From Chrysomallon squamiferum (Eukaryota; Mollusca; Gastropoda; Neomphalida; Peltospiridae): a stretch of DNA of 64,000 nt. The stretch is from NCBI GenBank assembly GCA_012295275.1, contig CM022665.1, positions 25,364,446 to 25,428,445 on the forward strand. Direction: 5' to 3'. The notes under the pieces are model-generated. The model was not told the DNA's origin and searched no databases. It saw nothing but the letters and a program-made list of their open reading frames with translations. Position numbers and translations under genes: made by a program. Numbering within the stretch: position 1 is the stretch's first letter; the number at the start of each line of letters is the position of its first letter. Below are positions 31,001 through 34,000 of this stretch, one piece after another.

Positions 31001-34000
31001 CTCTAATTGATAATTCTTATTTAATTCAGTTTTTGTCGTTTTAAATTCCCTTTTTTAGTAGAAATTTGGTTGTTTGGGTTTTTAATTGTGTAACGTTTTT
31101 TCATTGTGCATGGTATTTTTTCTCTGTTTTGTAAGTGGTTATTGTATTTAGATAATACTATATTTTAGAATATGTGTGTGGTTTTATTTGTTTGATTGGT
31201 AAATATTTTTGTTTTAAAACAATCTTGAATGCAGTGCTCTTGAAATGTGTTTGTAGTATGTTTACAAATTTATTTTATTCGTGTATTTTTGTTTTAGCTA
31301 AATATGACACCAGTATTCTTTTTAACAATTGGTTTTGTACTTGCATGTATACATGAGTGGTTATCTAAGAAAAGAACAAATGGAAAGAAACCTTAATCCT
31401 TCAAAATTATTTTGATAATGATTTTTTTTTTTTTTTTTTTTTCATAAATTGTTAAATTATAAAGACTGAATAAAAATAATGTATATGTTACTGTTTATTA
31501 CATATTGCAAGTTAAAAAATGTTTGGTTTAAATCAAAATAGCAAAAACAGATTATGGTGATTAAACATTTAAAGCCTTGCATTTTAAATCAATATTTACA
31601 TCTGTACTGCCAGTTATGAAAAGCATTCTGGAAAAAAATAATAATAATAATGAAAAAGAATTTATGCATGATTTTTTTTCTTTGATTTTTTCTTCTTCTT
31701 TTCTTTCTAGATAGTGATTTGTGTGTACATGCTAACAAATCCTTTATTTCAAATGTTTTGATTTTGGCTTTGAATATGCTCTTCAGATCTATTTTTTTTA
31801 ACTGCAAACAATTTTGCAAGAGGACTGCATTATTTTCCTAAATATTATTTGCTCAGCTCTATTTTGTGTTTGCACTGCTTTCCTCATTTTGTGTTCAGCT
31901 GTGAAATCCATTAAGAAACAACACCTTGTTGAAGTACGTTCCCTTGCCAACCCTCCAGCGGCTGTCAAAATGGCTGTAGAATCTATTTGTGATTTACTTG
32001 GGGAGACTGACCTTGATTGGAAAGCTCAAAGAGGAATTTTGATGAGAGACAATTTTATTTCTACTATTGTTAACTTCACAACTGAAGATATTACGTAAGT
32101 TAAGACTGAAATAACATGTCTGACGATTGCAGGTGACACAATATCAAGAAAATATTTTAATAGAAAATGTTTAAGCTTTGGCTGAAATTTAAAGTGTTAG
32201 AAATTCAAAACATGTATCTATTATATCTGTTAATACAGTAATATTGTTCCTTATTTTTGACTGGGATGATATATTAAAATGTTTTCATTATTGAGTCACC
32301 AGTAGTCCATAAAATATTTATGTTTAAAAGATAGTCTGGTATATCTTGTTTACTTATCATGCTGCCTGCAGCTGTGAAATCAATAAAGAAACAACACTTG
32401 GTTGAAATTCGGACAATGGGTAACCCACCTCCGGTGGTTAAATTGGCTCTAGAAGGAATCCTTCTCCTTCTTGGAGAAAGCACTTCTGATTGGAAGGGTA
32501 TCAGAACTGCCATCATGAAAGACAACTTCATACCTAGTATTGTGAACATGAAAATTGAAGATATACCGTAAGTCTTAAAAGACCAGACAAAGCTTTGATA
32601 GCAGCTCTGTAGTAAAAACATTAACAATAAAATTATCTTTCTGAGATATCCAATTAATATTTAGAGTAGAGTAAAAATAATTTATTAACACTTTGCTGAG
32701 TAAGTAAAGAAGGAAATATACTTGCAAATTCAATTAATTGTAACTTCTGTTTGGTATTTTGTAAACATAATTTATAGTTAATAAAACATTTTGTAAAATT
32801 TCCATGATCCTTATTTATATAATTTATTTAAAGTAATTTTTTGAACAGCATAAAATGGTAGTTATACAGATTTGTTCAGATTACTTCATATTCAATCTAT
32901 AACTGAAGATGTCTTCATTACAATAAAAATATTTTTAATATACATACATACATACATACATACATAGACATATAGAAATTAGAAACCATTAAGAACATTT
33001 TATAGGTATAATCTGTCTAAATTTCAGTGATGAGATTCGAACCAAGATGAAGACCAAGTATCTCAACAACCCAGACTACAACTACGAGAAAGTGAACAGG
33101 GCCAGTTTGGCTTGTGGACCTATGGTCAAGTGGGCTATTGCTCAGGTTTGTTCATTTACTCAATTTAATTTCTACCAAAAAGGAAATCTCTTACATTTTG
33201 TCATTCGTGTCCATAAGTGCATTTATTTTTTGCTTCCTGAGGAGAAAAAACTAAAATTTATTAAATATTGAAACTATAAAAATTTCAGATCAGTTATGCT
33301 GACATGCTGAAGAGAGTTGAGCCTCTGAGAAATGAACTGCTTGCACTGGAAAACCAGGCAAAGGAGAATCGCATGAAAGGAGAAGAAGTCAACAAACTCA
33401 TAGCTGAACTGGAGAAAAGCATTTCTAAGTACAAGGAAGAATACGCCATGCTGATCAGTGAAGCGCAGGCTATTAAAGCAGATCTTGCATTTGTTGAAAC
33501 AAAGGTACCATTTTTAACTACATTTATAAATACAGTAACTTTTATTTTGACTAAATCATATTACAGTATTTATCAAAATGTTCTTTTAGGTTGCTGTTGT
33601 TTTTTTCTCACTATTTGTCTTATAATTACTGTTAAAAATACTGGACATGATCAGAATAGTAATTTCATATCTGGAAACAGTCAAACAAATTTCATACAAT
33701 TACCAGGACTTGACAATAAGATTACAAAACAGAAGTGATGAATACTTTACATCTATTTTTCTTCTTCTTCTGTGTATTTCAGTATTTTGTTTGATTTTTT
33801 TTGTTATATAGGTTCAAAGGAGTGTTTCTTTGTTGAGCAGTCTAAGTAGTGAAAAACAACGTTGGGAGGCAGGCAGTGAGACTTTCAAGAACCAGATGGC
33901 TACTATTATTGGTGATGTTTTATTGTCATCAGCATTTATGGCCTATGCAGGATACTTTGATCAGTCAATGAGACAGAATTTGTTCTCCACTTGGTGTAAC

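Follow-up and report, generated by a model that had tools for sequence, protein, structure and literature searches.

Cytoplasmic dynein 1 is the main minus-end-directed cargo motor. A mutually exclusive exon pair in one cytoplasmic dynein heavy chain gene, DHC1 of Schistosoma mansoni, has served as a test case for the prediction of such exons (Pillmann et al. 2011, PMC3228551; this paper and most others are cited here from excerpts of their text). The same source describes clusters of mutually exclusive exons in the arthropod muscle myosin heavy chain, where they fine-tune the motor domain. Among dyneins, the microtubule-binding domain (MTBD) of dynein-2 is tuned to tyrosinated tubulin (PMC12706001), and multiple maternally deposited isoforms, the exons of which go unnamed in the excerpt, are reported for Dhc64C (PMC5147784). 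For mouse and human DYNC1H1, a 2013 review gives what is apparently a single isoform (PMC3824068). The name DYNC1H1 is absent from the main text of a survey of mutually exclusive exons in human (PMC5740500), and a look-up of terms found no mention of dynein heavy chain exons in the searched text of PMC10418259, PMC3303723, PMC5740500, PMC4465641, PMC10886578 and PMC3583065. The matches listed from open-licence PMC for MTBD exon choice in dynein 1 include the Schistosoma example and no functional study. Here we describe a tandem exon pair in the dynein 1 heavy chain gene of the gastropod Chrysomallon squamiferum. The window is the whole 64,000-nucleotide stretch of DNA that was analyzed, and all positions refer to it.

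The exon pair and its host gene

The host gene was mapped with a protein of Gigantopelta aegis, a member of the Peltospiridae like Chrysomallon (Table 1). A proportion of 61 out of 90 tblastn pieces reaches at least 85% identity, and the pieces below this value are taken to be mostly those that run into introns; exon a itself is 97% identical to the Gigantopelta protein. The initial annotation had numbered the duplicated exon 62, which agrees with a by-eye count of the tblastn pieces in which one piece was counted as two exons. Spliced with either copy, the MTBD matches Pfam PF12777 as well as the solved dynein-1 MTBDs, with E-values of 1.6e-79 (a) and 2.5e-78 (b) for structure 5ayh. The scores are 260-269 bits for mammalian dynein-1 chains spanning the query, 121-158 for two distinct cytoplasmic dyneins of amoeba and yeast, about 71-72 for dynein-2 and at most 69 for axonemal chains, where the organisms behind the matched structure-chain names are in part presumed. 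By these scores, dynein-1 is the nearest type, ahead of dynein-2 and the axonemal heavy chains. Both copies also contain K3301 and K3336 (human numbering), which are conserved in dynein-1 according to the excerpt of PMC12706001.

Table 1. Positions of the dynein gene, the exon pair and the neighboring exons in the window.
Feature	Position	Strand	Remarks
Dynein 1 heavy chain gene	2517..48881	+	Each exon matched by tblastn with Gigantopelta protein P0244 (4640 aa)
Exon upstream of the pair	30224..30377	+	CC1 of the stalk; ends in ...PAVIEAQQ and one base of a split codon; gene model, tblastn and open splice product
Alternative exon a (62a)	31899..32094	+	196 nt; begins and ends within a codon; initial portion of the MTBD
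Intron between copies a and b	32095..32371	+	277 nt, GT-AG
Alternative exon b (62b)	32372..32567	+	196 nt; phases as in a; same part of the MTBD
Exon downstream of the pair	33028..33145	+	Rest of the MTBD; gene model, tblastn and splice product
Next exon	33289..33501	+	CC2 of the stalk; tblastn and splice product; missing from the gene model

The boundaries that the initial annotation had drawn for both copies are exact. Each copy is preceded by AG and followed by GTAAGT, is open only in the dynein frame, starts by completing an alanine codon and ends with two bases of a split codon. The exons are identical at 129 of 196 bases (66%) and their peptides are 61-62% identical. As had been proposed, the end of CC1 is shared exactly (the first 12 residues) and about 26 of 66 peptide positions differ, namely 25 in the 64 complete codons plus the split last codon (T or P). 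The proposal that these differences lie mostly in helix 1 did not hold, as they are spread over residues 13 to 66. The 64 whole codons contain 25 amino-acid and 17 synonymous codon differences, and the differing bases fall at third (n = 31), first (n = 19) and second (n = 16) codon positions. With dN at 0.31 and dS at 1.56 (NG86), dN/dS is about 0.20, a value to be read with dS near saturation. Between the two exons this denotes protein-level constraint, the near saturation of dS notwithstanding. Different ancestral residues had been suggested to be retained by the copies. What the copies retain are different residues of the canonical vertebrate form, which is kept by a at 11 of the 26 differing positions, by b at nine and by neither at six. 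Similar length, compatible splice sites and phases, homologous peptides and a neighboring position, by which mutually exclusive homologous exons are recognized in the excerpt of PMC3228551, are all found here.

Within the 64-kb window, tblastn yielded no third exon copy (next best E-value 0.91), and genome searches, in which the best candidates only were scored, returned no other locus for the pair. In a gene model of 74 exons, from which some real exons are missing and in which some exons are doubtful, exon a alone has a homologous neighbor on the same strand at E < 1e-20 (E 8.9e-23). Besides exon a, three model exons match elsewhere: two weakly (E 0.037 and 0.006) and one on the opposite strand. 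The latter match, between 43050-43104 and 45632-45685, is perfect over 18 codons at a distance of about 2.5 kb and is probably an inverted repeat that lies in an intron, around a doubtful model exon, and not coding sequence. Overall, the observation of a tandem exon pair is confirmed and is stronger than first reported. Downstream of the dynein gene, on the same strand at about 53366-55132, peptides were noticed that resemble a PP2A regulatory subunit, presumably a PPP2R3C-like one; a 107-aa piece of them has no match in Pfam.

Translation bears out the claim that only one copy per transcript keeps the frame, as upstream exon, a and downstream exons are open when joined, and so are upstream exon, b and downstream exons. 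When a is joined to b, translation stops at codon 11 past the junction codon; when both copies are skipped, it stops after seven codons. The splice sites had been called good. GT-AG is indeed present at both copies, but the strength of the sites is not uniformly good: among 80 model exons, 13 donors score no higher than that of a and nine no higher than that of b, while the corresponding numbers for the acceptors are 39 and 10. The acceptor of exon b is weak. We read the low ranks of the donors as due to the C in which each exon ends. Weak splice sites are common in regulated exons. The splicing of a and b may be regulated. The intron between the copies, at 277 nt, is not obviously too short for splicing. 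Pairing between intron RNAs, which covered the middle and downstream introns and the 3'-terminal 500 nt of the upstream one, did not exceed that of shuffled sequences (as strong in 6, 21 and 33 of 60 shuffles), nor did a duplex of the upstream intron with exon b (as strong in 23 of 30 shuffles). Rfam gave no matches and a promoter scan was uninformative. The intron after exon b carries an (ATAC)n microsatellite of 6.8 units at 32940-32966.

Occurrence and age of the pair

The b and a segments were each searched against about 5.8 billion proteins, restricted to long homologues. At E ≤ 0.001, these searches matched 135 and 129 proteins, respectively, with the best 120 of each listed; 165 long proteins (2861-4992 aa) were examined, with a score cut-off of our own for calling two copies. 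Related species had been named as the place to look for the same pair, and relatives do carry a pair: at least 14 of the 165 homologues carry two copies in series. Among the matches listed, these proteins represent ten genera in five phyla. They comprise the gastropod Batillaria, the insects Spodoptera, Asbolus, Habropoda and Timema (with one copy truncated in the last two), the sea spider Nymphon, the flatworm Macrostomum, the nematodes Trichinella (five records) and Trichuris, and the fish Coryphaenoides, the record of which is labelled low quality and has one copy garbled mid-way. In all 14, either a copy is trimmed or extra residues stand between the copies, as would be expected of a gene finder if serial inclusion breaks the frame. 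The two copies of Batillaria follow the same order along the protein as those of the window, with window a 79% identical to the first and window b 77% identical to the second, compared to 61-62% between window a and window b.

Database proteins were clustered at 90%, so that the alternative isoforms of one species usually end up in one cluster. Nonetheless, two isoforms of Conger conger are present, X1 and X2 (P0213 and P0262), each of 4643 aa. They differ at 16 positions, all of them at 3295-3357 and inside the exon segment. A second vertebrate type of the segment occurs, among the matches listed, in nine of the 165 proteins. Its carriers include zebrafish (X2), Erpetoichthys (X2), the hagfish Myxine and the turtle Chrysemys, the record of the turtle being labelled '1-like' and possibly stemming from another gene. 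All 20 mammalian proteins checked, one of them known by its label only, have the first type, which is no proof that the second is absent. Several records each of Penaeus, Zootermopsis, Esox and Oncorhynchus kisutch share one segment per species, a kind of repeat that the search favored.

A divergent version of the segment was also seen in Diptera. It has 66 residues and belongs to Condylostylus isoform X2 (P0237), while Chironomus and Culex have a version of 67 residues to which that of Diamesa is very similar (P0229, P0230 and P0239). These versions hint at the same exon choice in flies.

The age of the pair was approached with a tree of 66 hand-chosen segments over 66 columns; the groups for its topology tests were named after the tree was seen. 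The molluscan a-type rows come from a chiton, two oysters, Gigantopelta, three other gastropod genera and window a. Their branch (88/83) also takes in the nemertean Tubulanus as well as four rows that are divergent and either from worms or unnamed; inside it, the molluscs and the nemertean make up a narrower branch (81/43). Pecten, Lottia, Haliotis, Batillaria and window b constitute a molluscan b-type branch (96/94). Vertebrate type 1 (99/96) and type 2 (95/90) each have a branch as well. A recent duplication in the present lineage, which would place window a, window b and Gigantopelta together, was rejected (p-AU 0.024). Neither a duplication confined to the molluscs and the nemertean (p-AU 0.163) nor one within the vertebrates (p-AU 0.378) was rejected. 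If the tree is right, it supports a molluscan pair that predates the split of bivalves and gastropods.

A second tree of 18 rows was restricted to species with both copies. On it, the 5' and 3' labels require six changes, against a mean of 6.3 when shuffled. A single 5' clade was not rejected (p-AU 0.084), nor were separate duplications in molluscs (0.073), insects (0.277), nematodes (0.366) and the conger (0.126). One ordered ancestral duplication across phyla is hence neither supported nor rejected by these 18 rows. The second copy of Macrostomum groups with molluscan b (93/97) on a long branch in this tree and stands elsewhere in the 66-row tree, so that its placement was given no weight. 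The second nematode copy (P0125 of Trichinella, P0127 of Trichuris) is strongly diverged, its stem measuring 0.91 changes per column in the 66-row tree and 0.85 in the 18-row tree, which suggests that one isoform may have changed fast in this group.

Tubulin contacts and the predicted effect of the swap

Helices H1, H2 and H3 are anchored by E3306, L3319 and K3336, respectively (PMC12706001), with their finer limits presumed. Several dynein-1 residues at or near tubulin are named in the excerpts: K3299 and R3337 of mouse (PMC6629372), and K3301, E3306 and K3336 in human numbering (PMC12706001). For the mouse model, 3334 and 3342 are given as the positions that form salt bridges on H3 (PMC7042235). 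Mouse K3298 has been proposed to take part in a dynamic salt bridge, which was not found in the simulations of PMC4987762 as excerpted. The contact or near-contact residues that could be placed in the exon are K3300, K3301, E3306, R3308, K3336, R3339 and R3344 (human numbering). The positions named in the papers correspond to exon residues 6, 7, 12, 42, 45 and 50, while residue 14 (R3308) is our own mapping of the H1 arginine of PMC7042235.

Charge is kept in both copies at every placed contact position, where the sole change is from R in a to K in b at residue 50 (3344). The initial annotation had envisaged one gene that makes two dyneins differing in track binding. The part of this idea that places a frame-enforced MTBD swap in one gene stands; a changed track specificity, as it was worded, is not borne out by the contact charges. 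Because these are kept in both copies, the swap would more probably alter affinity by degrees than alter track specificity, and we favor the view that it would tune the grip rather than switch the track. Among the first 65 positions there are 11 where the nine a-type rows (eight molluscs, one nemertean) and the five b-type molluscs have no residue in common. One of these is exon residue 38, two positions ahead of the aspartate in front of H3, which is D or E in the a-type and T, S or A in the b-type.

The net charge in the snail is -1 for the a segment and +2 for the b segment. Among the rows examined, it ranges from +1 to +2 for b (five molluscs) and from -1 to +1 for a (eight molluscs and the nemertean). 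A charge rule that is consistent across phyla was tried and failed, the vertebrate second type having 0 versus +1. In a modelling study, stronger electrostatic binding goes along with slower movement and longer runs (excerpt of PMC4987762). Given this relation and its more positive charge, b is predicted to bind tighter, run further and move slower. The prediction of a tighter grip by b derives from charge, is not computed on these proteins and does not transfer in sign to the vertebrates.

Competing explanations and comparison with known systems

As we see it, one gene probably makes two complete motors by choosing one of two MTBD exons, and thereby tunes its grip. Each transcript would take one copy, a or b. 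A transcript with both or neither would, as translated, meet an early stop, and nonsense-mediated decay would then probably eliminate it. Both products would be complete motors of about 4640 residues, told apart by 26 residues that all belong to the MTBD. With the core tubulin-gripping charges the same, the swap would adjust the grip, and hence run length and speed, instead of the choice of track. We count the molluscan trees, the conger isoforms and the lone position of the pair among the 74 model exons in support of this explanation.

Exclusive use of both copies is also compatible with a protein difference that is neutral, in which case the swap would only permit separate expression control. 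The conserved charges at the placed contacts and the many conservative changes (V/I, L/M, S/T) speak for such neutrality. We nevertheless hold it to be unlikely, since the a and b types are without a common residue at the 11 positions mentioned above, dN/dS is about 0.2, and type-specific residues should not have lasted this long under drift alone. It is more doubtful still that exon b (or a) has decayed or is rarely used and that essentially all dynein comes from one copy. The weak acceptor of exon b would fit this, and so would the Gigantopelta record, which contains the a-type exon only, though it is labelled LOW QUALITY. Exon b, however, is open with intact sites and groups with proteins of Haliotis (isoform X2), Lottia and Pecten (isoform X2).

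Both the double-inclusion and the skip product stop within about a dozen codons, as would suit a second copy that acts mainly as a poison exon and lowers dynein through nonsense-mediated decay after double inclusion or skipping. A poison exon, though, would not have to remain intact as an MTBD segment and keep type-specific residues common to distant molluscs, and the annotation presents isoform X2 of the conger as a full-length motor; we regard this role as very improbable. The probability that the duplicate is an artefact of assembly is negligible, because the divergence already refutes it: the copies are only 66% identical and the introns flanking them differ. Paired copies are, moreover, present in the proteins of other species.

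The choice between two complete motors remains our preferred explanation, and animals may tune dynein 1 by swapping one exon. We see an even chance that dynein 1 has long had a second grip selected by splicing. The MTBD pair behind it would go back at least to the split of bivalves and gastropods and, given the second type in the hagfish, perhaps about as far in vertebrates; it would allow two track bindings per gene and may be lost or overlooked in mammals. Should it be common for animals to splice two MTBDs into one heavy chain, the affinity of the motor would itself be a regulated variable. The exon pairs would also supply biophysics with natural, function-preserving variants of the dynein-microtubule interface.

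Compared to the systems described so far, dynein-2 resembles the snail pair in that differences in MTBD surface charge are thought to alter track use (excerpt of PMC12706001). In contrast, dynein-2 is a separate gene without K3336, a residue that both snail copies keep. Arthropod muscle myosin shares with the snail dynein the exon swap in a cytoskeletal motor; it is an actin motor with several clusters, while the single pair of the snail sits in the tip by which a microtubule motor binds its track. The conger isoforms come close in another way, being two annotated forms whose differences are confined to this exon segment, with 16 differences instead of 26 and on the basis of annotation rather than experiment. 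The Schistosoma DHC1 pair could be compared by its description in the excerpt of PMC3228551, which is silent on the exon position, the MTBD, expression and function. As described there, it is like the pair of the snail in belonging to the same gene family, in the equal lengths of its exons and in their split codons.
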